A stretch of 57,029 nucleotides of DNA from Alicyclobacillus sp. (lineage in GTDB: Bacteria; Bacillota; Bacilli; Alicyclobacillales; Alicyclobacillaceae): positions 1 through 57,029 of the forward strand of contig JAIMAY010000016.1 in NCBI GenBank assembly GCA_023511725.1, written 5' to 3'. Position numbers and translations under genes: made by a program. The notes under the pieces were generated by a model, which saw only the letters and a list, made by a program, of their open reading frames with translations, was not told the origin of the DNA and made no database searches. Positions 1 through 42,340 of this stretch are shown piece by piece. Positions within the stretch are counted from its first letter, which is position 1, and every line of letters starts with the position of its first letter.

Positions 1-1
1 G

Positions 2-496
2 CTTCGACTTTATGGTGGAGCAGATTTGCTTTGCGACGCGCATTTTCTGCCATTTGCGGATGAAAGCTTTGATGTGGTCTATTCAGCGGCTGTGTTTGAG
101 CATTTGGCCTGTCCTCTCAGAGCAGTGCAGGAAGTCAGAAGGGTCCTGAAGCCCGGCGGATTGATGCTGAGCAATGCTTCCTTCATGGAACCTTGGCACG
201 ACCACAGCTATTTCCACTTAAGTCCGCTTGGTGCCGTCGAACTTTTAACGGCCGGCGAAATGCGGCCTGTGAAAGTCTGGCCCTCCCGAAATTATAGCGG
301 CTTTAAAGCCATGTCAGTCATGCGGAGTGGCCCGTTAAATCCTAACCGCTTTTTAGGCAAGCTAATGCACTATCTGCAGGAATCTGAAGACAGCCTGAAG
401 GCCATTGGGCGCAAATTGTTCGGCAGGCCGCCCAAGTCAATGATCTTGGCAAAAGCGATTTCGGCTGGGGCAATTGACTGGATTGCAGTGAAGTGA
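2..496 (+). CDS. Class I SAM-dependent methyltransferase, 5'-truncated by the window edge
   Basis: The reading frame is open from the first bases, so the gene starts outside the window; about 164 residues remain. The visible part carries the Methyltransf_11 pattern: an acidic segment followed by LPFADESFDVVYS, then FEHL, then EVRRVLKPGG, which are the post-I, motif II and motif III regions of small-molecule methyltransferases. The SAM-binding glycine loop would lie upstream. It shares a four-base GTGA overlap with the next gene, which suggests translational coupling. G+C is only about 50 % here, clearly lower than in the rest of the window. Together with the acyltransferase start that follows, it resembles a piece of a surface-polysaccharide or sugar-modification cluster. 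The substrate cannot be told. Confidence 0.75.
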   Translation, partial: LRLYGGADLLCDAHFLPFADESFDVVYSAAVFEHLACPLRAVQEVRRVLKPGGLMLSNASFMEPWHDHSYFHLSPLGAVELLTAGEMRPVKVWPSRNYSGFKAMSVMRSGPLNPNRFLGKLMHYLQESEDSLKAIGRKLFGRPPKSMILAKAISAGAIDWIAVK

Positions 497-1590
497 ACCC
501 AACGCATTCCGACAATAAGACAACCGCCCATATCCCCATATTGGATGGCTGGCGCGCACTAAGCATATTGCTTGTGCTTGCTGGCCATTGGCTGCCCATT
601 GGACGCCCCGAATGGCGCTTAAATGAATCGGTCGCCGCATCGGGAATGGCGCTCTTTTTCTGCTTGTCGGGATTTCTAATTACCCAGTTTCTGCTGGCCG
701 ATCACGCTGAGGAGCCTGCGCTGCTGCACACCCTTGCGGCTCGTCTGACCCCCGGCGAGGTCTGGGTCAGCTTCAACGGGCGCGCCTTCGACTGGCCGCT
801 GCTGAAAAGCCGCATGCGCCTGCACCGCCTGCACGATGATCCCGCCCGCCCGCAGTTGGATCTGCTCCACCCGGCCCGCCGTCTGTGGCGATCACGCCTC
901 GACCGCGTCAGCCTGCAGACGGTCGAGGCGGAGGTGCTGGGAATGCGGCGCACGGCGGACCTGCCGGGGAGCGAGGCGCCGGATCGGTACTTTCGCTTCG
1001 TGGAGGACCCGCAAGCGGAGTGTCTCGCACCGGTCTTGGACCACAACGCGAGCGACGTGCTGACACTGGTGGTGCTGGCGACGGAGGTGGCGGCACGCAT
1101 GGGTGCTCCCACGGCGGACAGTGCCGCCGAATTCGCCGCCATGGGCCGCTGGTACGACGAGTGGCAGGTGTACGACCTGGCGGATGCGTGCTTCGAGCGC
1201 GCCGCCCAGCATCCGGACGCGGATTGGCAGTCGCTCTGGCTGGCCAGCCTGCACTGGAAGCGCCGCCGCGAGTGGCACCGCGCGGCCGCCATCTGGCGCG
1301 AATTGGCGCAGCGGTACCCGGGCTCCGTGGCACCGCTGGTGGAGTTGGCGAAATGGGCGGAGCATCAGCTTCGGCAGTGGGATGAGGCGGAGCGGTGGAC
1401 GATGGAGGCGTTGGCGCGCGCGGAGCGCCAGGTCCGCGAGCGGCTGCGCAGCGTCGGGGCCGTCAGGTCCTCTGCCCATGCACCTGCGGACATCGGCGGA
1501 CGCGCCGCTGTGGAGGCGGATCCGCTCGTTCGCGCGCTGCGTCACCGGCTTGCGCGGATCCGACGCAAACGGGCGGATCGCCAAGGGTAA
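493..1590 (+). CDS. Chimeric ORF: acyltransferase-3 N-terminus joined to YprB-like RNase H/TPR C-terminus
   Basis: The ORF encodes 365 aa from a GTG that overlaps the previous stop. Residues 1-70 are the start of an OafA/YrhL-type acyltransferase-3: a DGWRALSILLVLAGHW segment and a SGFLITQFLL membrane segment. From about residue 70 the protein becomes the C-terminal two thirds of a YprB-type protein: EEPALL, then SFNGRAFDWPLL and a later HNASDVLTL, which are exonuclease-like RNase H motifs, followed from about residue 215 by TPR-like helices. The first catalytic DxE motif of YprB and its first roughly 120 residues are absent, and the acyltransferase lacks nearly all of its 10-11 membrane spans. 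G+C jumps from about 50 % to about 70 % at the same point. Neither half should be functional. It is either a recombination scar or an assembly join. Confidence 0.7.
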   Translation: MNPTHSDNKTTAHIPILDGWRALSILLVLAGHWLPIGRPEWRLNESVAASGMALFFCLSGFLITQFLLADHAEEPALLHTLAARLTPGEVWVSFNGRAFDWPLLKSRMRLHRLHDDPARPQLDLLHPARRLWRSRLDRVSLQTVEAEVLGMRRTADLPGSEAPDRYFRFVEDPQAECLAPVLDHNASDVLTLVVLATEVAARMGAPTADSAAEFAAMGRWYDEWQVYDLADACFERAAQHPDADWQSLWLASLHWKRRREWHRAAAIWRELAQRYPGSVAPLVELAKWAEHQLRQWDEAERWTMEALARAERQVRERLRSVGAVRSSAHAPADIGGRAAVEADPLVRALRHRLARIRRKRADRQG

Positions 1591-1610
1591 ACCTTGGCCT
1601 GATCCGCCCG
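1570..1610. terminator. Long stem-loop between convergent genes
   Basis: A perfect 10-bp outer stem (1570-1579 with 1601-1610) continues into a 7-bp inner stem (1580-1586 with 1592-1598) with a GTAAA loop and a two-base bulge. It contains the stop codon of the YprB-like ORF and lies just before the end of the convergent RND gene. There is no U-tract on either strand, so factor-independent termination is likely but not certain. Confidence 0.5.
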
Positions 1611-1631: not shown

Positions 1632-4600
1632 TCATGCAGCCTTGGGTTCGCGATGCAACAGCTCATACACCACAGGCACCACGACGAGCGTGAGCAGCGT
1701 GGACGTCACGAGGCCGCCTATCACGACCACCGCCAAACCCTGCGAGATCAGGGCGCCCTCGGAGAATCCGAGCGCCAACGGGAACAGCGCGCAGACGGTC
1801 GCGATGGCGGTCATCAGGATCGGCCGCAGGCGCGTGGTGGCCGCCTCGAGCAGGGCATCCCGCACGGTCCTGCCGCGGGCGCGCTGGCGCTCCACACGGT
1901 CCACCAGCACAATGGCGTTCGTGACCACGATGCCCATCAGCATCAGGATGCCGATGAGTGAGGACACCGAAACCGGTTGGTGCCCTATCACCGTGCCGAA
2001 GAATGCGCCAATCAGCGCGACGGGCATCGAGAACAGGATGGAGAAGGGCGCCTTCCAATCGCCGAAGGCCATCAGCATCACCAGATAGACCAACCCGGCC
2101 GCAATGATGATGGCCTCAATCAGCTGCTGGAAGCTCTGATTCTGCTCCTGCGTCGCGCCCGAGAGCTGAACCTGGATGTCGGCGGGAAGATGCAGTTGCC
2201 GAATCTTATCCATCGCCGTACGGCTGACCTGCCCTGTGTTGTTGGTTGTGAAGTCCCCCTTGATCTCGGCGAACGGCTGCCCGTTCTGATGCGTGATGGT
2301 GACCGGGGTCTGGACGGTGTTCACTCGGGCCACGTCGCCGAGATGAACGGTTTTCCCGACCGGCGTGTCTATCTCGAGGTTCCGAATCGCATCCAGCGAC
2401 CCCACGGAGGTGTCCGCGAGCGACGCCTCCACGTCGTAGCTGTCGCCGTTCAGGGTGATGGAGCCCATGTTCTGGCCGGAGATGGCCGCCGCGGCGGCGG
2501 TGGCAATCTGGTAACTGGTCAGACCGTACTGGGCCGCCTTGGCCGAATCCGGCACCACCTGCACCTCGGGCTGGGTCTGCGTCAGGTTGTTGCTGACGTT
2601 GGCGAGGCCGGGCAAATCCTGCAGCGCCTTGGTGACGCGCTGCGCCGCCTCCTGCAACTCGGCCGATGTACCGCCGGTCAACACGATGTCGAACCCTTCT
2701 CCCGAACCGCCCAGGATCATCTCCTTCACCTGAATCTGTGCCGGTCCCGCGATGCCCTGCAGTTTCTGGCGCAGGCTGGCGGTGAAGGCGGACACGTCCG
2801 TGTCCGGTTGCAGTTCGAGGAACAGGCTGGCCTGATTCTCGCCGCTGACGCTGCCGCTGTCGCTGAGTTGACCGGGATCCGATCCGACCTTGGCGTTCAT
2901 CTGCGCCACGGTGTCGACGTAGGTGCGGATGATGGCTTCCACCTGCCGAGTCTTCGCATCCGTTGCCGAGAGGGGGGTGCCGACCGGCATCGTGATCGAC
3001 ACCGTGGCGAATTTCTCCCGCGACTCGGGGATGAACGTGCTCCCCGCGAGCGGCAGCACCGCGATGGACGCCACCAACAGCAGGCCCGCCGCGGCCATCA
3101 GCCAGCCCTTGTGGTTCAGGCACGCGGCCAGCATGCGCTGGTATCGCAGCTGCCACGGCCGCCACTGCGAGGTACCGCCTCCGCCGCCCGGCTGCTCGGT
3201 GACGGCGAGTTCCGCTGCGGCCGCGTCCACCGCCTCGCGGGTCTTGGCGCGTACCAGCAGCAGCCAGGCCAGCGCCGGCACGACGGTGAGGGCCACGAGC
3301 AGCGACGACAGGAGGGCGCAGACCACGGTCAGCGCAAACGGGTAAAAGATCTTGCCCACCAAGCCGCTGACCAGCCCGAGCGGGAGAAACACCGCCACCG
3401 TGGTGATGGTAGAGGCCGTGATGGCCTGGCCCACCTCGGCCGCGGCGTCCAGCACCAACGCCTTGCCGGCCAACTCACCCTGTTTGAATCTGCGGTGGAT
3501 GTTTTCAATCACAACAATGCTGTCGTCCACCACCCGGCCGGTGGCCACCGCCATGCCGCCCAGGGTCATGATGTTCAGCGTGATGCCGAGCTGGCGCAAC
3601 AGGATGGTGCTGATTAACAGCGAGAGCGGGATGGACACCACCGCGATGATGGTGTTGCGCACGCTGCGCAGGAAGAGCAGGATCACCACGGCCGCAAACA
3701 GCGCACCGAGCAATGCCTCGCGGAGCATGCCGTTGACCGACGCGGTGATCATCTGCGACGAGTCAAACAGCGGCACGATGTGGATCCCTGCCGGGAGTTG
3801 CTTGCTGAGGTCCGCCAGCTTCGCATTTACGGCGCGCGCCATGTCGACGGTGTTGGCATCCTCTGTCTTCACCACGCCGACGAACACGCTGGGCTGACCA
3901 TTGGTCCGGTTGATGGAGTGATCCGCCGGAGGTGCCAGCGTCACGTCGGCGATATCGGACAGCTTGACCGTTTGCAGGGTCTCGCTGGTCTGTGTTGACG
4001 CTGCTGATCCTGCCTGTGCACGCTGCGCCACCGGCAGCTGCGCCGCGCCTGCCGCGGGCGGTGACATCGAGGTCTCGCCACCCTTGCCGGCGCTGGCCGC
4101 CAGTTGCTTCTGCAGCGCCGTCAGCTGTTGCTGGAGCTTTTGCTGCGCCTGGGTCAGCGCCTGGACCTGCGCCTGCAACTGCGCCACCGTCTGCGGATTG
4201 CGCGCAGCCTCCGGGAGTGCCTGCTGCTGCGCAAGCGCCAGTTCAGCGCCGAACAGTTGCCCCTGGACCTGCAGCATCTCGTTCAGCAACTGATTCTCGG
4301 CGGCCACCGTCGCCACGCCCTGGCCAAGTTGTCCCACGCCTTGCGCCAGTTGGCCCATGCCCTGCGACAGCGCGCCCATCCCTTGCGCCAATTGACCCAC
4401 CGTGTGTCCCAGCTGCGACATCCCGGCCATGGCCTGTTTCATGCCGGCCGAGGCGTCCGCGGGCACGGGCAGGCGCAGGTTCTTCAGGTCATCCAGCGTC
4501 TTCGGCGCACCGGCCAGCTCAATCGGCTGCACCGTGCCGCCGACGCTGGCGGAACCAAGCGGCTGGGTCACATTCGCCGCCTGCAGCTCCTGCACCGCCT

Positions 4601-5210
4601 GCGCGAAGGTGAGGTGGTGGTCGCGAAGTTTGGCGGGATCGAACCGAATCTGCACCTGATCCGGTGCAGCCCCGCCCAGTTGTACCGAGGCCACGCCGGG
4701 TACACCCTCGAGCGCGGGCACGATGGTGTTCTGCACGGTGGTGCGCAGCTTCTGCAGGTCTCCGTTGCTGGAGGCCACCGTCAGGTACACGACCGGCGCG
4801 CTGTTAAAGGAAAACTTCTGCACCGTCGGCTTCAGCGTGCCACTCGGCAGATGAGCCTGGTTGACGATGTCCTGCACCTTCTGCTGCGCCGCATTCAGAT
4901 CCGCGTTGAGGTTGAATTCGATTTCGATCTCGGCCACGTTCGCGGTCGACACGGACGTGACGTTTTTGACATCGGCGACGCCCTGAAGCGCCCGTTCCAG
5001 CGGCTCACTGACTTGGCTGGCCACCTGGTCCGGCGATGCCCCGGGATAGGGCACGACCACGGCAATCACGGGAAAGTCCACGTCGGGCATGAGCTCTTCG
5101 TGCAGCCCCAGCGCCGAAATGACGCCGCCAATCAAGACCAGGATGGAGAGGATAATGATGACCAGCGGGTTGCGCAACGAGAAGCGGGTGAGCCATCGCA
5201 AAGCAGCCAT
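1632..5210 (-). CDS. RND-superfamily multidrug/lipid efflux pump, SwrC/AcrB (HAE1) type
   Basis: The 1192-residue inner-membrane pump uses the proton gradient to export hydrophobic compounds. In B. subtilis the relative SwrC (YerP) serves surfactin resistance and swarming. The first TM helix is at residues 15-36, followed by a porter domain, a TM block around 505-680, a second porter domain and a final TM block around 1000-1185. The TM4 acidic segment GGMAVATGRVVDDSIVV is present. The protein is longer than SwrC (about 1065 aa) because residues 250-412 form an insertion before VKLSDIADV. It begins with G-(M/V)-G-x-L-x-Q heptads and continues as a Gln-rich coiled coil. The G-rich ribosome-binding site abuts ATG 5210, so a TTG at 5201 is also a possible start. 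No adaptor gene is adjacent. Confidence 0.9.
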   Translation of the reverse strand: MAALRWLTRFSLRNPLVIIILSILVLIGGVISALGLHEELMPDVDFPVIAVVVPYPGASPDQVASQVSEPLERALQGVADVKNVTSVSTANVAEIEIEFNLNADLNAAQQKVQDIVNQAHLPSGTLKPTVQKFSFNSAPVVYLTVASSNGDLQKLRTTVQNTIVPALEGVPGVASVQLGGAAPDQVQIRFDPAKLRDHHLTFAQAVQELQAANVTQPLGSASVGGTVQPIELAGAPKTLDDLKNLRLPVPADASAGMKQAMAGMSQLGHTVGQLAQGMGALSQGMGQLAQGVGQLGQGVATVAAENQLLNEMLQVQGQLFGAELALAQQQALPEAARNPQTVAQLQAQVQALTQAQQKLQQQLTALQKQLAASAGKGGETSMSPPAAGAAQLPVAQRAQAGSAASTQTSETLQTVKLSDIADVTLAPPADHSINRTNGQPSVFVGVVKTEDANTVDMARAVNAKLADLSKQLPAGIHIVPLFDSSQMITASVNGMLREALLGALFAAVVILLFLRSVRNTIIAVVSIPLSLLISTILLRQLGITLNIMTLGGMAVATGRVVDDSIVVIENIHRRFKQGELAGKALVLDAAAEVGQAITASTITTVAVFLPLGLVSGLVGKIFYPFALTVVCALLSSLLVALTVVPALAWLLLVRAKTREAVDAAAAELAVTEQPGGGGGTSQWRPWQLRYQRMLAACLNHKGWLMAAAGLLLVASIAVLPLAGSTFIPESREKFATVSITMPVGTPLSATDAKTRQVEAIIRTYVDTVAQMNAKVGSDPGQLSDSGSVSGENQASLFLELQPDTDVSAFTASLRQKLQGIAGPAQIQVKEMILGGSGEGFDIVLTGGTSAELQEAAQRVTKALQDLPGLANVSNNLTQTQPEVQVVPDSAKAAQYGLTSYQIATAAAAAISGQNMGSITLNGDSYDVEASLADTSVGSLDAIRNLEIDTPVGKTVHLGDVARVNTVQTPVTITHQNGQPFAEIKGDFTTNNTGQVSRTAMDKIRQLHLPADIQVQLSGATQEQNQSFQQLIEAIIIAAGLVYLVMLMAFGDWKAPFSILFSMPVALIGAFFGTVIGHQPVSVSSLIGILMLMGIVVTNAIVLVDRVERQRARGRTVRDALLEAATTRLRPILMTAIATVCALFPLALGFSEGALISQGLAVVVIGGLVTSTLLTLVVVPVVYELLHREPKAA

Positions 5211-5281: not shown

Positions 5282-5514
5282 AGAACTTGGAAACACATTC
5301 GGGACTGGGTGTGCGCCTGCCCGGTACCCGTCGGCGTCTGTCACGGTTGCACCCCGGCGCCGGGTTGTCTAGTCTTAGTAGTAAACGGAAGGGCTTGGGA
5401 CAAGCCGTGAAGGGAGCATACAAGCGTGAGATGCACGGGGTGGAGCGACGGGGACTTCGAGGTGTGGCTGCCGCTGTACCGTTCGGCGGCCCGGACAGAG
5501 GAGGTTCATGCAGG

Positions 5515-6087
5515 ATGAAGACGCGCGAGGAAGCACTGGCCCTGCTCAAGGAATACACGCAAAGCGAGTCACTTCTCCGCCACGCCTATGCGGTGGAGGC
5601 TGCGATGCGGGCCTACGCAGAGAAGTTTGGCGAGGACGTGGAGAAATGGGGCATCACCGGGCTGCTTCACGACTTTGACTACGAGAAGTATCCGACGCCT
5701 CAGGAGCACACCATTGTCGGCGCGCGGATCCTGCGCGAACTCGGGTACCCGGAGGATGTGATCTACGCCATTCAGGCGCATGCAGATTACAATCATCTGC
5801 CGCGCAACACCCTCATGGCGAAAGCCCTCTACGCCTGCGATGAGTTGTCCGGCTTCCTGATGGCGGTGGCGATGGTGAAGCCTTCGCGCCGAATTGCTGA
5901 TGTCGAGGTCAAGAGCGTCCGCAAGAAATTGAAGGACAAGGCGTTTGCGCGCGGTGTCAACCGTGACGATGTGTATCGCGGTGCGGAGGAACTCGGGGTC
6001 GATCTCGATGAGCACATCGCCTTCCTCATCGAAGCGCTGTCTCGCGTCGCACCGGCCCTGGGACTGGACGGCCAGGCCAGCGCATAA
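5515..6087 (+). CDS. HD-domain hydrolase (HDIG-type)
   Basis: The 190-residue cytosolic protein carries an HD superfamily metal-dependent phosphohydrolase domain: a first His in LLRHAYAVE (about residue 20), the HD pair in GLLHDFDYEKYP (about 52), and a later His in QEHTIVGARIL, then IQAHADYNH. Such small single-domain HD proteins hydrolyse nucleotides or related phosphoesters; the substrate is unknown. I chose ATG 5515 because AGAGGAGG lies ten bases upstream, although the frame is open for 76 further codons of implausible composition. It has its own leader and stands 49 bases before the nucleotidase gene, with which it may be co-transcribed. Confidence 0.85.
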   Translation: MKTREEALALLKEYTQSESLLRHAYAVEAAMRAYAEKFGEDVEKWGITGLLHDFDYEKYPTPQEHTIVGARILRELGYPEDVIYAIQAHADYNHLPRNTLMAKALYACDELSGFLMAVAMVKPSRRIADVEVKSVRKKLKDKAFARGVNRDDVYRGAEELGVDLDEHIAFLIEALSRVAPALGLDGQASA

Positions 6088-6136
6088 AATCCTGACGTAA
6101 CAGGTTGCCCCGGCAACGCGTGCGATGAGGTGAGCC

Positions 6137-7594
6137 GTGAGAGTTCACGTACTGCATACCAACGACGTGCACAGTCAGGTGGAAAACTATCTCCGCCTCG
6201 GCGCCCGCCTGCGAGCCCTGCGCGAGGATCTGCGGCGGGCGGGGGAGGCGGTGTTGACGTTCGACATCGGGGATCTGATGGACCGAGTGCGGCCAGAGAC
6301 GGAGGCCACCCTCGGTCGCGTCAACGCCGCGCTGATGGCGGCGCTGGGGTACGACGGATGGGTGTTCGGCAATAACGAAGGTCTCACCATCCCCGTGAGC
6401 GAGTGGGACGACCTCGTGCGTCTGTCCGGGACGACCGTGTTCGGGACCAATCTGCGCACGCGGAGCGGTCGACCGTTCGCGTCCATGGCCGACTTCCGTG
6501 TGTTTGAGCTGGAGGGCGTCAGAATCGGCGTGTTCGGGGTGACGCCCAATTACGAAGTGGCCTACCGCGCGCTCGCGGTACGCCCGTTGCCGCCCCTGAG
6601 GATGGCGCGCGAGATGGCATGCCGTCTGCGCGCCGAGGGGTGCCAGCTCGTACTGGCCTTGTCTCACCTCGGGCTGCCGGAGGACCATCGGATGGCAGCC
6701 GAGGTGCCGGAGATTGACGTCATCCTCGGCGGGCACACACACCACTTTTTGCCCGGTGTCGAGTGGGAAGGCAGGACCGCCATCTTTCAGGCCGGGAAGC
6801 ATGCGCTCGCGTTTGGACACACCGTGATAGAGCTGGATGTGGCGGCGCGCCGGGTCACGGACGTCCGTGCGGAAACGGTGCCCGTACCGCTGGATGGTCC
6901 GCCCGATGCCGCGATGGCGCAGGTGTATGAGGCGTGGCTTCCGCGCATCTCCGCTTCGCTGAGCCAGCCCATCGCGCATCTGACCACGCCTCTCCCCGTC
7001 TCGTTGGAGGAAGAATCCCTGTTCGCCAATGTGCTGGTGGAAGCGCTGATGGATGCGTATCCGGCGGACATCGGCATCATGATGGCCGGCGCGCTGGGCG
7101 CCAGCCTGCTGGCGGGAGACGTGACGCTCCGAGACGTGCTTGGCGCCTGCTCCACACCCACCCGTCCCCTGCTCTTGACGCTGACCGGTCGGGACCTCGT
7201 CGCCATCCTTGAGAAATCCCTGCAACCGGCGTACTATCGGCGACAGGGGATAGGTTTCGGCTTTCGCGGCGGCTGGATTGGCCGGCTTGCGTTGGCGGGG
7301 GCGCGCGTGGAGGTAGAAGCGGGCTGTAACGCCGACGAGCCCCGCATCCGCCAGGTGTGGATTCGCGGTGAACCCGTTCAACTGCATGCCGCATATCGCG
7401 TGGTTACCTGCGAGTACCTGTGGCTATCGCCCGTGTATCGTGAGTTCAAGGCCGGCCGCGACGTGGAGGTGAAGGCGCCGCTCGTGCGTGAGGTTCTGCT
7501 GTCGCGCCTGCGGGATGCGCGGCTGTTGGAGCGTGCCCGTGATCGCCGGTATATCTGTGTAAATCCATGCGAGGGAAGGGAGGGGCCTGCGTGA
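6137..7594 (+). CDS. yunD: Cytosolic 5'-nucleotidase / metallophosphoesterase, YunD type
   Basis: A 485-residue bifunctional UshA-family protein without a signal peptide, like B. subtilis YunD. The N-terminal calcineurin-type phosphoesterase domain shows LHTNDVHSQ (residues 6-14), FDIGDLMD (about 46), FGNNEG (about 78; usual GNHE, so Asn replaces His) and ILGGHTHHF (about 196). The C-terminal 5'-nucleotidase domain follows from about residue 270, with LFANVLVEALMD and TLRDVLGAC. The start is GTG 6137, preceded by GAGGTGAG. The last four bases overlap the start of nth. Role by family: dephosphorylation of nucleoside monophosphates or cyclic nucleotides. The Asn substitution and weak NAGG motif make the exact activity uncertain. 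Confidence 0.88.
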   Translation: MRVHVLHTNDVHSQVENYLRLGARLRALREDLRRAGEAVLTFDIGDLMDRVRPETEATLGRVNAALMAALGYDGWVFGNNEGLTIPVSEWDDLVRLSGTTVFGTNLRTRSGRPFASMADFRVFELEGVRIGVFGVTPNYEVAYRALAVRPLPPLRMAREMACRLRAEGCQLVLALSHLGLPEDHRMAAEVPEIDVILGGHTHHFLPGVEWEGRTAIFQAGKHALAFGHTVIELDVAARRVTDVRAETVPVPLDGPPDAAMAQVYEAWLPRISASLSQPIAHLTTPLPVSLEEESLFANVLVEALMDAYPADIGIMMAGALGASLLAGDVTLRDVLGACSTPTRPLLLTLTGRDLVAILEKSLQPAYYRRQGIGFGFRGGWIGRLALAGARVEVEAGCNADEPRIRQVWIRGEPVQLHAAYRVVTCEYLWLSPVYREFKAGRDVEVKAPLVREVLLSRLRDARLLERARDRRYICVNPCEGREGPA

Positions 7595-8340
7595 TCAAGA
7601 AGCAAATGCTGTCCCGCGCGAGAACGCGAAAACTGCTGGACAAGCTGGCCGCCGCCTATCCGGACGCGCGCTGCGCGCTCAACTTCAGCAATTCGTTCGA
7701 GCTTTTGATTGCGACCATGCTGTCGGCCCAGTCCACGGATGCCAAGGTGAACCAGGTCACCGCACGTCTCTTTGCAAAATATCGAGGTCCGGAAGACTAT
7801 GCCGCGCTGGATGTGGATACACTGCAAGAGGACATCAAGGAACTGGGACTGTGGCGGATGAAATCCGAGCACATCATCGAGACGTGCCGGATGCTGCTGA
7901 AGGAGTATGGTGGAGAGGTGCCGCGCACGCAGGAGGAATTGGTCAAGCTGCCTGGCGTCGGCCGGAAGACGGCCAATGTCGTGGTTTCCAACGCGTTCGG
8001 CGTGCCGGCCATCGCCGTGGACACGCACGTGCAGCGCGTCTCCAACCGGCTCGGATTGGCGAACAGCATGAATCCGGAGTTGACGGAGCGGCAGCTCTGT
8101 GAGCGCATTCCGAAGCACCTTTGGTCACAGGCGCATCACTGGCTGATTCACCACGGTCGGCGCGTGTGCACAGCGCGAAATCCCCGCTGCCACAAGTGCC
8201 CCGTTCGCGAATTCTGCCAGTTCTACGAGCAGATGCAAAAGGAACCGAAGCTGCTCGAAAAAGTCTTCGAGGAAAAACCGGACAAGAAGACGCGGGGGCG
8301 CCGCCGGCGTCCGGCGGCTCACGGCACGTACGGCTCGTAA
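7591..8340 (+). CDS. nth: Endonuclease III (DNA glycosylase/AP lyase)
   Basis: A base-excision repair enzyme that removes oxidised pyrimidines and cleaves abasic sites. From GTG 7591 the protein has 249 aa. The helix-hairpin-helix LPGVGRKTANVV holds the catalytic Lys126, VDTHVQRV holds Asp144, and the C-terminal [4Fe-4S] ligands are Cys193, 200, 203 and 209 in the canonical C-x6-C-x2-C-x5-C spacing. An AGGGAGGGG sequence precedes the GTG, whose first base lies inside the last sense codon of yunD (GTGA overlap), so this start is preferred to ATG 7567. A Lys/Arg-rich tail of about 30 residues extends beyond the iron-sulfur loop. The 3' end overlaps the convergent YgzB-like gene by 22 bases. Confidence 0.96.
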   Translation: MIKKQMLSRARTRKLLDKLAAAYPDARCALNFSNSFELLIATMLSAQSTDAKVNQVTARLFAKYRGPEDYAALDVDTLQEDIKELGLWRMKSEHIIETCRMLLKEYGGEVPRTQEELVKLPGVGRKTANVVVSNAFGVPAIAVDTHVQRVSNRLGLANSMNPELTERQLCERIPKHLWSQAHHWLIHHGRRVCTARNPRCHKCPVREFCQFYEQMQKEPKLLEKVFEEKPDKKTRGRRRRPAAHGTYGS

Positions 8341-9311: not shown

Positions 9312-9413
9312 CGCACCTTTCCTCCTCGCATAAGGAAGCCTTTCTCTTCGCACGCTACATCCCGGATCCCAATGCGCGGGCGAATGCGCCTGCCGCATGA
9401 CAGGGGGAGTAGC

Positions 9414-11321
9414 GTGCTGGTTCCAACGTGGCTCCGCAAACTGTTGACCGTGGACGACGCGGTGTTGAACGAGCAGTTCACGCTGATTGATCAGCCCGGC
9501 CAACCGGGACCGGGGGATGCGCAGTCGGGCAATGCGGACGTCGGTGGTGCTAACACGCAAGGCGAGCGTGGAGACGCGCCCGGCGGTGAAGGTACGGAGG
9601 ATCAGCAGCAAGCCGCAGACCGCGGCCGCGGCCGTGAAGGCGCGGGGGAAGGGCGGGATCGGCAGCAGAATGGGTTGATCACGCGCCCGTTCACCAAACC
9701 CGTCTCCATCCGCGAATTCATTGTCCAGAATGAACACCGCTACGAGTCGGAGACCGAGGCACACAGCACGCAGGAGGACCCGGTGTTTCCGGACCTGGAC
9801 CGGTCGCTGCACCGCGTTCAGGAGCTGTTCCATCTCCCGGAGAACAAGGATATTGTGATCCGCGAGTTTCGCATCGGCACCGAGAGCCGCTGGCGGGCGT
9901 TCGTCGTGTTCATCGACGGCTTGACGGACCGGAATACCACCAACCTCGCCGTGCTGCAGCCGCTGATGCTCCTCTCCTCCTTGCCTGAAGTGGAGCCGGC
10001 TCGCCGCATCGAAACCGTCCTCGACGTGCTGCTTCCGGGCAACCAGGTACAGCCCGCCAAGACTTGGCCGGATGTGGTCAGCGGGATTCTGGCCGGATCG
10101 ACCGCATTGTTCGTGGACGGCTCGGATACGGCGCTGCTGGTGGAGACCAAGGGTTGGGAGCACCGGACGGTCGGGTTACCTCAGGTCGAGACCGTGGTCC
10201 GCGGACCGAAGGAAGCCTTCACCGAACTGTTTCGCGCCAACACCGCGCTGGTCCGCTCTTTCCTCCGCAGCGAACACCTGGTGACGGAGATGTTCAAAGT
10301 CGGCCGGCTCGGGCAGACCGACGTGGCCGTGATGTACATCAAGGGGATTGCCAATCCACGCTTGGTGGATGAGGTAAAGCGGCGGATTGAGTCGATTGAG
10401 GTCGACTACCTGCCGGACAGCGGGTTGTTCGAGCAGTTCATTGAGGACAGCCCCAAACACATCCTGCCGCAGGTGTTCTCGACCGAGCGGCCGGATAGGA
10501 TTGCGCACCTGCTGACGGAGGGGCACGTGGCCATCTTCGTGGGGAACAGCCCGTTCGCCCTCGCTGTGCCGGTGGTCTTCTGGACGCTCATGCATACGCC
10601 GGAAGACGCCTATCTGCGCTACCCGTTCGGCTCATTTTTGCGTATCATCCGCTGGATTGCGCTGCTGGTCGCGCTGCTTCTGCCGGGCTTCTATGTGGCG
10701 TTGACGAACTACCATCCGGAGATGATCCCGACGGACCTCATGCTTGCCATCGCAGGCAGTCGTGAAATGGTGCCGTTCCCGGTGATCATGGAGGTCCTGA
10801 TGATGGAGTTCGCCATCGAGCTGATCCGCGAAGCGGGCATCCGCATTCCGTCCGTGATTGGACCGACGATTGGCATCGTCGGCGCGTTGATCATCGGGCA
10901 GGCCGCGGTGCAGGCCGGCATTGTCAGCCCGCTGCTGGTGATTGTGATTGCCACCACGTCGCTGGCGTCGTTCGCCATCCCCAACTACAACCTGGGCATG
11001 GGGGTGCGTATCCTGCGCTTCATCTTCCTCTTGGCGGCCGCGGTATTCGGGTTCTACGGCATGGCCTTGATGTTCTGGATTGTGCTGGCGCGCCTGTCCG
11101 TTCAGAAGAGCTTTGGCGTGCCGCTGCTGGCACCGGTGTCGCCGAGCATGGGCGCGTCTCGCGACGTCATTCTGCGCGGCCCGGCGTATGTGATGAACGA
11201 ACGTCCAACATATCTGCAGCCGTTCAAGCGCTGGCGTCAGAACCCGGAGACGCGACCGTGGAGCGTGAAGACACGGCCAGTGGACAAGGATCCGAGCGGG
11301 CGACGGGGAGGGAAGCGCTGA
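9414..11321 (+). CDS. gerA: Germinant receptor A subunit (GerA family)
   Basis: The A subunit of a spore inner-membrane germinant receptor. From GTG 9414, preceded by AGGGGGA at good spacing, the protein has 635 aa. Residues 1-20 and about 90-400 form the soluble N-terminal GerA domain, with IREFRIGTESRWRAFVVFIDG, TALFVDGSD and VRGPKEAFTE. About five TM helices follow between residues 400 and 580, with the conserved MIPTDLMLAIAGSREMVPF and FAIPNYNLGMGVRILRF segments. Between residues 25 and 80 there is a Gly/Gln/Asp-rich low-complexity linker, longer than in typical GerA proteins. The stop at 11321 abuts the ATG of gerB, so the genes form an operon. Confidence 0.93.
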   Translation: MLVPTWLRKLLTVDDAVLNEQFTLIDQPGQPGPGDAQSGNADVGGANTQGERGDAPGGEGTEDQQQAADRGRGREGAGEGRDRQQNGLITRPFTKPVSIREFIVQNEHRYESETEAHSTQEDPVFPDLDRSLHRVQELFHLPENKDIVIREFRIGTESRWRAFVVFIDGLTDRNTTNLAVLQPLMLLSSLPEVEPARRIETVLDVLLPGNQVQPAKTWPDVVSGILAGSTALFVDGSDTALLVETKGWEHRTVGLPQVETVVRGPKEAFTELFRANTALVRSFLRSEHLVTEMFKVGRLGQTDVAVMYIKGIANPRLVDEVKRRIESIEVDYLPDSGLFEQFIEDSPKHILPQVFSTERPDRIAHLLTEGHVAIFVGNSPFALAVPVVFWTLMHTPEDAYLRYPFGSFLRIIRWIALLVALLLPGFYVALTNYHPEMIPTDLMLAIAGSREMVPFPVIMEVLMMEFAIELIREAGIRIPSVIGPTIGIVGALIIGQAAVQAGIVSPLLVIVIATTSLASFAIPNYNLGMGVRILRFIFLLAAAVFGFYGMALMFWIVLARLSVQKSFGVPLLAPVSPSMGASRDVILRGPAYVMNERPTYLQPFKRWRQNPETRPWSVKTRPVDKDPSGRRGGKR

Positions 11322-12443
11322 ATGCAGATGGTGCAAAACAAAGCGCGGGTCGGCGGCAAAGAGCTCACCGCCGCCATGACGCTTTTGGTGGCGAGCCACA
11401 CATTCCTCATCTATCCGCAGTACGCTTCCCGTTACGGGCTGGAGGCGTCGTGGATGGCGCCCATTGAAGGCGCCATCGTCAGCCTTGTGCTGTTTCTGCT
11501 GCTCGATGCGCTGATCTTCCGCTTCTTCCCTGGGCAAGATTTGATTGAGATTGCGCAGACCGCGCTGGGGACGTTTGGCGGCGTGCTGGTGGCCCTGCTG
11601 CTCGCCTTGTACTTCTTGTTTGTTACCGCCAGCGTGCTGCGTGAGTTTGTCGAAAACGTGCTGACCACCGTGTTACCGTCCACGCCCATCCTGGTCGCGA
11701 CGCTGCTGTTCATGATGGCGGTGGGATATTTCGCCTATCTGGGGCTCGAAGGCATTGTTCGCACCGCTTTTTTCACTTTGCCCATCCTGCTCGTCGGCGT
11801 GCTCGGATTGTGCCTGTTGACGATGAACTGGTGGCACCCCATTCTGCTGTTTCCCATTCTCGGCAGTGGCATTCCAGCGTTGACGCTGCTGGGGCTGCGC
11901 ACCTGCTCCCTGTTCACGAATGTGCTGCTGCTGAGCATCATTTACAAGCACGCGCACGATCCGCACGAACTCCGCCGCGTGGGCATCAACAGCACCCTGC
12001 TGGCCGCGCTGGTGCTGAGCGCGTTTTTGCTCACGTATCACATGGTGTTTGCGGAGCAGTCGGCGGTGAACATCTCCTTCCCGTTCTACCAGTTGGCGCG
12101 GCTCATCTATATCGGGCGCTTTATCCAGCGCATGGAGAGTATCTTCGTATTTCTGTGGGTGGCGGCCGCCTTGATTGTCATGGCCGTGCTGATCTGGGGG
12201 GCGGCCTACGTACTCAGCGTCGGCCTGCGCTGGTCCACCTTCCGCCCGGGTGTCCCGGCGCTCACCCTGCTGTGTCTGGCCGTCGGCCTCATCCCCGCGA
12301 GCGTGACGCACGCCATCCAGTTCGACTACAGGGTGTTTCTGCCGTGGGGGTGGACCATGAACTTCGTGTTTCCCATCCTCGTCGTCCTGGTGGCGCGCAT
12401 GCGCACACCGGGAAGGGCTCACCGCAGGAGGAGGGTCGCCTGA
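11322..12443 (+). CDS. gerB: Germinant receptor B subunit (GerB family permease)
   Basis: A 373-residue polytopic membrane protein of the GerAB/ArcD/YndE spore-germination permease family (APC superfamily), which binds the germinant within the receptor. About ten TM helices are visible. The family region ALGTFGGVLVALLLALYF, then FVENVLTTVLPSTPI, is present, and the last helix MNFVFPILVVLVARM ends in a basic tail. It begins immediately after the gerA stop, and its own stop shares bases with the next start (TGATG). Unlike the gerB copy at 43575-44645 it is intact over its full length. Confidence 0.93.
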   Translation: MQMVQNKARVGGKELTAAMTLLVASHTFLIYPQYASRYGLEASWMAPIEGAIVSLVLFLLLDALIFRFFPGQDLIEIAQTALGTFGGVLVALLLALYFLFVTASVLREFVENVLTTVLPSTPILVATLLFMMAVGYFAYLGLEGIVRTAFFTLPILLVGVLGLCLLTMNWWHPILLFPILGSGIPALTLLGLRTCSLFTNVLLLSIIYKHAHDPHELRRVGINSTLLAALVLSAFLLTYHMVFAEQSAVNISFPFYQLARLIYIGRFIQRMESIFVFLWVAAALIVMAVLIWGAAYVLSVGLRWSTFRPGVPALTLLCLAVGLIPASVTHAIQFDYRVFLPWGWTMNFVFPILVVLVARMRTPGRAHRRRRVA

Positions 12444-40960: not shown

Positions 40961-42340
40961 ATGTCTGGGCCAGTTCAGGAGAAAAAGGCAGGTGGGGTAC
41001 GCGGTCTGAAGCGCAGCCTCTCCGCGCGGCAGATGCAGATGCTGGCGGTGGGCGGCGTCATTGGTGTGGGACTGTTTTACGGCGCAAGCGTGTCCGTGTC
41101 CGTCGCGGGCCCGTCGGTGCTCATCGACTTTATCGTGTGTGGCCTGCTGGTGGCCATCGTCATGCGGGCCCTGGCCGAGATGGTCGTGGAGAGACCGGTT
41201 TCCGGCTCATTCGGCCAATACGCGGCGCACTGGCTGGGTCGCCGGATTGGCTTCGTGACGGCGGGCATGTGGTGGTTCTTCTGGGTCGCCACCGTGATGT
41301 CGGAACTCGCGGCCATCGGCAAGCTGCTGCAGTTCTGGTGGCCCCAGCTGCCCGTATGGCTGCCCGGCGCAGTGGCGCTGGTGCTGTTCACCATCACGAA
41401 TCTGCTGGCGGTTCGGGTGTTCGGCGAAATTGAGTACTGGTTCGCGGTGCTGAAGGTGCTGACGGTGCTCGTGTTCATCGTCTTCGGCGCCCTGATAGCC
41501 GCCGGTGCGCTGGTGCCCGGGTATGCGCCGGGTCTGCGCAATCTGTACGCTGCCGGGGGATTCATGCCCGGCGGCTGGCTGGGGCTGGCGATGGCCATCT
41601 CGCTCGTCGTCCAAGCGTACAGCGGGGTGGAGACCCTGGCCGTGGAGTCGGGCGAATCGGCGGATCCCGAGCGCAACGTGCGGCGGGCGTTCCGGACCGT
41701 GACGTGGCGGATCGCCATCCTCTACATCGGCTCGATGCTGATCCTGCTCTGCGCCTACCCCTGGACACAACTGATCCACCAGAGCGGCAGCCCGTACGTG
41801 CAGGTCTTCCGAGCCGCGGGCGTACCGTTTGCCGCAGGTCTTGTGAACCTTGTGATTGTGCTGTCCGGGCTGTCCTCCTGTAACACCGGTCTGTACGGTG
41901 GCAGCCGGATGCTCTACGGCATGGCGGAGGAGGCGCAACGGGCGGGCTGGCTGCGGCGCGTGAACCGGCGGCACGTACCGCACCTCGCGGTCTGGACCAC
42001 GGCCATCGCCATCGCCGTCGGTGTGGTGCTGACGTACCTGGCGCCGAATCAGGTGTACGTCTGGATCACCAGCGCATCCGCCTTCGCGGACCTGTGGGTG
42101 TGGGGCGTGATCCTGGCGTGCGAGATCAGCGTCCGTCGGCAGGCACGGCGGACGGGCCAATCGCTGCGCTACCCGGTTCCGCTATGGCCGGCGTGGCCCA
42201 TCGCCGGGCTCGTGCTGGTGGTGCTGTGCTTCGCTGCCATCGTGGCTTCGCCGCTGACCCGCGTCTCCGTGTTCTCCGGCGTGCTGTTTCTGGTGCTGCT
42301 GTGGCTGTATGACGTCGTGGCGGCGCGGCGACGGGCGTAG
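40961..42340 (+). CDS. APC-superfamily amino-acid permease
   Basis: A 459-residue transporter with twelve TM helices. The N-terminus has LSARQMQMLAVGGVIGVGLFYG, the substrate-binding glycine loop of AAT-type (AnsP, GabP, ProY) permeases, and later VERPVSGSFGQYAAHWLG and SGVETLAVESGESADPERN. The amino acid transported cannot be deduced. ATG 40961 follows GGAAGGGAG. It ends about 60 bases before the convergent end of the decayed ger operon. Confidence 0.9.
   Translation: MSGPVQEKKAGGVRGLKRSLSARQMQMLAVGGVIGVGLFYGASVSVSVAGPSVLIDFIVCGLLVAIVMRALAEMVVERPVSGSFGQYAAHWLGRRIGFVTAGMWWFFWVATVMSELAAIGKLLQFWWPQLPVWLPGAVALVLFTITNLLAVRVFGEIEYWFAVLKVLTVLVFIVFGALIAAGALVPGYAPGLRNLYAAGGFMPGGWLGLAMAISLVVQAYSGVETLAVESGESADPERNVRRAFRTVTWRIAILYIGSMLILLCAYPWTQLIHQSGSPYVQVFRAAGVPFAAGLVNLVIVLSGLSSCNTGLYGGSRMLYGMAEEAQRAGWLRRVNRRHVPHLAVWTTAIAIAVGVVLTYLAPNQVYVWITSASAFADLWVWGVILACEISVRRQARRTGQSLRYPVPLWPAWPIAGLVLVVLCFAAIVASPLTRVSVFSGVLFLVLLWLYDVVAARRRA

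Follow-up and report, generated by a model that had tools for sequence, protein, structure and literature searches.

A probable chimeric contig end in the yprA-yprB locus of an Alicyclobacillus genome assembly

Overview

The left edge of contig C52 is very probably a chimeric contig end in an ordinary yprA-yprB locus, and neither a fusion gene nor an insertion, as judged by comparative sequence analysis. C52, the whole of which (1 to 57,029) is the window analyzed here, belongs to an Alicyclobacillus genome of 2,660,096 bases in 76 contigs (97.69% complete, 1.21% contaminated) that we infer to be a metagenome-assembled genome (MAG). Because the window is the complete contig, the foreign piece is a tail of ~690 bases located at a contig end. 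In the organism itself, yprA, yprB and a transporter gene would form one ordinary locus. The assembly would have broken inside yprB, such that the left side, with yprA and the 5' part of yprB on contig C50, was joined to the 3' part of a gene for an FAD-dependent protein, and the right side, on C52, came to carry the tail from a proteobacterium-like source. Both joins would have been made in a k=77 graph assembly, with dead ends falsely joined on a short overlap or through a chimeric library molecule; these are the likeliest mechanisms because the same 10-base word, CTGCTGGCCG, is present in both joins. The two joins probably arose in the assembly software or during library preparation rather than in the cell.

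The fused open reading frame and its switch point

The region 493-1590 is a single open frame of 365 amino acids in which the N-terminus of an acyltransferase-3 protein runs in frame into YprB/MrfB (Table 1). The N-terminal part matches Acyl_transf_3 (PF01757) over residues 16-64 (E 1.9e-6; 27.6 bits, which does not reach the curated cut-off of 31 bits), and this match covers profile positions 3-60 of 326, so that the frame contains no full-length membrane domain. RNase_H_2 is recognized at residues 63-197 (E 3.1e-26), and a check of the C-terminal TPR region returned TPR_6 at residues 248-278 with 19.8 bits, under the 26.3 cut-off.

The identity of the acyltransferase part to a protein of a Sideroxydans MAG (36 of 55 residues) extends up to residue 70, that is, window position 702. 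In turn, QFLLADHAEEPALL, which begins with the codon at position 685, scores 24.9 bits on a YprB profile of eight relatives, a score attained by none of the 85,963 14-mers without stops that window 1701-57029 provides in six frames (maximum, 13.3 bits). Because the sequence is of the YprB type from 685 and the acyltransferase identity continues to 702, the family switch falls within 685-702. The G+C content rises from 0.52 before base 680 to 0.68 over the next 1500 bases, a step with z 7.0, and none of the 334 internal control positions, from overlapping windows of two contigs, reaches z 7. An earlier note on this DNA had placed an in-frame chimera of an acyltransferase and a YprB-like gene at 670-720, with the G+C content changing there from about 50 to about 70%; the profiles and identities confirm the chimera and narrow the switch, and the measured G+C step agrees as well. 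The further proposal that the stretch at the switch fits both families holds for FLITQFLLAD but not for HAEEPALL, for which the YprB score is 14.1 bits, compared to -1.4 bits for the aligned residues of the Sideroxydans acyltransferase.

Table 1. Features of the left part of the window (complete contig C52, 57,029 nucleotides); genes of the native flank were named by eye
Feature	Position	Strand	Basis
3' part of methyltransferase gene; foreign tail, open at contig end	2..496	+	Methyltransf_11 and relatives
5' part of acyltransferase-3 gene; foreign tail	493..702	+	Acyl_transf_3 and Sideroxydans identity
Zone of protein family switch	685..702	+	YprB profile score, acyltransferase identity, G+C step at 680
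yprB (mrfB), 3' part; nuclease-site residues DTE absent	685..1590	+	YprB profile positions 152-446; RNase_H_2
CTGCTGGCCG, 10-base word common to the C50 join	691..700	+	Also at C50:42089-42098
RND-type transporter gene; native flank	1632..5210	-	Downstream of yprB in 6/10 relatives' regions
HD-type hydrolase, 5'-nucleotidase-like and endonuclease III-like genes; native flank	5287..8340	+	Downstream of yprB in 8, 8 and 9 of 10 relatives' regions, respectively

The missing half of yprB and the native locus

The search of the genome with the YprB profile (limit E 10) yielded exactly two places, C50:41579-42115, which matches profile positions 4-176, and C52:673-1584, which matches the positions given in Table 1. 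The half of yprB on C52 follows the foreign tail, and the one on C50 directly follows yprA (identified by the DEAD, Helicase_C and MZB domains). Thus, the missing 5' half of yprB, which the earlier note had recommended looking for elsewhere in the genome, is indeed there.

MrfB (YprB) is a DEDDh exonuclease encoded beside the helicase MrfA (YprA). In Bacillus subtilis MrfB, the DEDDh residues are D107, E109, D172, H258 and D262, and alanine variants of D107 and E109 displayed significantly lower activity in a gel assay (excerpts of PMC11194089). Mapped by motif and spacing, the FNG..FDW and DHNASDV parts are present in the window frame but DTE, which by motif comprises D107 and E109 of the B. 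subtilis protein, is absent and sits on C50. Joined together, the halves from C50 and C52 form, in frame, a full-length member of this family next to yprA, whereas the window frame by itself contains neither the N-terminal part nor the first two catalytic residues.

Gene order in the relatives points in the same direction. yprA lies directly before yprB in all 10 relatives' regions examined, the leuS-like gene of C50 lies before yprB in 9 of the 10, and the genes that come after yprB on C52 are found after it in these regions as well, with the counts given in Table 1. The misses in these counts are no proof of absence because no region extended beyond 20 kb or past the end of its contig. Given the locations of the two halves and the gene order in relatives, C50 and C52 represent one native locus that is split inside yprB.

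On C50, at 42089-42124, in the middle of the contig, the 5' part of yprB gives way, with a change of frame, to the 3' part of the FAD-dependent gene, and the conserved CWPACGVINGAGGAG of the encoded protein begins at this join. The gene is 88% identical to that of relative G011 and is present in 29 of the 41 genomes searched, including this one; its downstream neighbors on C50 agree with those in relatives G021 and G010. When residues 1-106 of a relative's protein were used as the query, residues 65-106 matched C50; the remaining matches in the genome were short (25-53% identity), and none was credible for the first 64 residues, encoded by the 5' part. The upstream neighbors of the gene likewise had no match in the parts of the genome searched; in this neighbor search, a cupredoxin-like query produced two 41% matches, inside C73 and C13.

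Origin of the foreign tail

The tail is made up of two incomplete genes, with a methyltransferase gene represented by its 3' part and the acyltransferase gene by its 5' part. The relatives identified are Proteobacteria. The Methyltransf_11 match (E 2.1e-14) is limited to profile positions 48-94 of 95, and the methyltransferase is 51% identical to a protein of the Sideroxydans MAG and 46% identical to one from Neorhizobium. In the same stretch of the Sideroxydans MAG, an acyltransferase with the same N-terminus is encoded one gene beyond the methyltransferase, on the opposite strand. The tail acyltransferase is also 65% identical to a Palleronia protein over 52 residues. A scan of the genome collection found two relatives in all, the Sideroxydans MAG and a Rickettsiales MAG. 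Because the best relatives are 46-65% identical, the donor can be named no closer than "proteobacterium-like". C52 thus changes lineage internally, being proteobacterium-like at 1-702 and family-native from 685.

The first 55 residues of the frame resemble acyltransferase-3 (PF01757) proteins of polysaccharide loci, with 64-65% identity to the Palleronia and Sideroxydans proteins, of which the former is encoded among glycosyltransferase genes; unlike these family members, the window frame holds 58 of the 326 profile positions. The rest of the acyltransferase gene, another part that the earlier note had suggested seeking elsewhere in the genome, did not turn up; apart from the C52 stub, PF01757 matched the genome only on C15, in a complete copy. 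The 5' part of the methyltransferase gene was not found by the own-genome search either, apart from one 33% partial match on C63. With window 1-1600 as the query, the genome search returned only the window itself, so the left end of C52 matches none of the other contigs.

The shared word and the fit of the two yprB pieces

CTGCTGGCCG is located at both joins (Table 1) and occurs 2 and 4 times in contigs C52 and C50, respectively. In a post hoc chance test, run after the word had been seen, 0.226% of 100,000 pairs of random 40-base stretches had at least 10 bases in common. The word is far shorter than k=77, which weighs against the chimeric-contig-end reading; SPAdes-type assemblers include a gap-closing step that accepts ~10 bases. 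Among the 84 contig ends compared (of 152), nine pairs overlap by exactly 77 nt, a length that we take to be the k of a SPAdes-type graph assembly, and 5 more pairs share 44-60 nt. The 77-nt overlaps would allow linking several contigs of this genome.

The yprB pieces of C50 and C52 share an overlap of 14 codons, in which only 8 residues and 32 of the 42 bases agree. Because these codons are repeated with differences, the pieces do not simply add up to one gene, and a clean cut of a single yprB was not a fully satisfactory account. A scripted join at CTGCTGGCCG gives an open frame of 470 amino acids (527 bits) with an imperfect repeat of 10 residues (22 of 30 bases alike), which was not seen in the ten relatives aligned. 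Joined at GCGCTGCTG, the pieces form an open frame of 460 amino acids without the insertion (536 bits), and the YprB-like QFLLADHAEEPA of C52 is left unaccounted for. Neither join is proven, and the overlap implies either an old 10-residue repeat in the gene or the presence of two alleles.

The latter option corresponds to a variant that is nested in the chimeric-contig-end reading, such that its probability is a part of, and not an addition to, the probability of that reading: C50 and C52 might carry the yprB genes of two related organisms that ended up in one bin, with a separate chimeric join on either contig. We regard this variant as possible, albeit rather unlikely. Apart from the 14-codon overlap with its 8 identical residues, it is favored by the drop of third-position G+C (G+C3) across the C50 join, from a median of 0.80 (32 frames) to 0.72 (9 frames; p 1e-4); relative G021, in comparison, is even. 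However, the HD gene and the yprA-type domain are each single-copy, the G+C3 values of 51 sampled contigs form one broad hump, and two breaks within the same ~40 bases of yprB, together with a chance 10-mer, would be required.

Other contig ends

G+C steps were surveyed at 74 contig ends, namely, the 84 compared less 10 starts that were short or masked (52 starts and 22 ends). Steps with z of at least 7 were detected at 4 of the 74 (C13, C6, C43 and C52) versus 0 of the 334 controls; with z of at least 6, the counts were 6 versus 3, and with z of at least 5, 8 versus 8, so the difference shrinks at lower thresholds. All four of the steepest steps are at contig starts, with none among the 22 ends.

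The clearest of the other chimeric contig ends is C13. It starts with a tail of 43% G+C in which a gene named by eye as ilvN-like is accompanied by the 3' part of ilvB, which is joined in frame, at ~1150-1200 of the piece 1-2184, with the 5' part of ilvB at 69% G+C; all three domains of the TPP enzyme are present in this chimera. In relatives, the ilvN-like protein has near-full-length matches of 45-57% identity; no second match was found in its own genome at E 0.001. At the start of C6 (1-980), a ~1 kb tail of 52% G+C with a glycosyltransferase family 2 gene inside precedes sequence of 70%, and at the start of C43 (1-980), a ~1 kb tail of 48% G+C with no recognizable gene precedes sequence of 64%; no gene was shown to be broken by either tail.

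Two other regions of the window can be mentioned. Genes at 9372-12443 belong to the GerA and Spore_permease families, that is, spore germination genes, which fits a spore-forming, Bacillota-type host. Near the right contig end (53000-56000), in ~3 kb, the G+C content goes down to 56-57%; a cupredoxin-like gene lies within this region, and a thioredoxin gene lies just beyond it.

Alternative explanations

A working acyltransferase-YprB fusion protein is barely conceivable. The single open frame would accommodate such a protein, but it contains neither the DTE residues nor the larger part of the acyltransferase, and the 27 YprB-type matches in 40 relatives all start at a query residue of at least 52, so that none of these shows the fusion. 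A real cellular rearrangement, in which ends were swapped at the shared word among yprB, the FAD-dependent gene and a proteobacterial polysaccharide locus that had been acquired, would be consistent with the same 10-mer at both joins, the in-frame join on C52 and the coherence of the foreign tail over two genes. This scenario requires three breakpoints, however, and the genome searches recovered neither the 5' part of the FAD-dependent gene nor the acyltransferase 3' and methyltransferase 5' parts, with the foreign part present at a contig end only; we consider it very improbable. As for the recombination or misled assembler invoked in the earlier note, the assembly (or library) side is favored because the 5' half of yprB on C50 also appears to be wrongly joined to another gene.

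Gene transfer, whereby the left part of yprB received, or gave way to, a foreign polysaccharide locus, with an independent break on C50, is likewise very improbable. It would explain the juxtaposition of proteobacterium-like genes at 52% G+C with native genes at 68%, and the loss of the acyltransferase 3' part is expected in a replacement. Nevertheless, yprA and the 5' part of yprB persist on C50, the genome searches yielded nothing more of the foreign locus than the short piece at the contig end, and the edge of this locus would have to coincide exactly with the site at which yprB is broken by another chimera as well. The earlier proposal of such a locus inserted into, or replacing, yprA-yprB is therefore not supported, and gene transfer is not the preferred explanation.

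A chimeric contig end, the preferred reading, has precedents in the misassembled, chimeric contigs of MAGs addressed by GUNC (excerpts of PMC8201837), with which it shares the combination of fragments from different lineages in one contig and a marker-based contamination estimate, here 1.21%, that does not reveal the chimera. The native continuation is found elsewhere in the assembly, as yprA and the 5' part of yprB on C50. The difference is that, here, the foreign piece is short and terminal, and the same 10-base word recurs in a second join. The GUNC authors consider misassemblies relatively rare compared to mis-binning, as stated in the same excerpts, a point against the preferred reading.

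Implications

The route followed here does not depend on reads and consists in finding the missing half of the gene and comparing the gene order in relatives, the short word at both joins and the other contig ends. Its outcome keeps a false fusion gene, or a false case of gene transfer, out of the record. Should the joins be real after all, they would amount to a rare microhomology-guided rearrangement; with the very low probability given above, a three-way exchange at CTGCTGGCCG would inactivate the mrfAB repair nuclease and leave an in-frame acyltransferase-YprB product.
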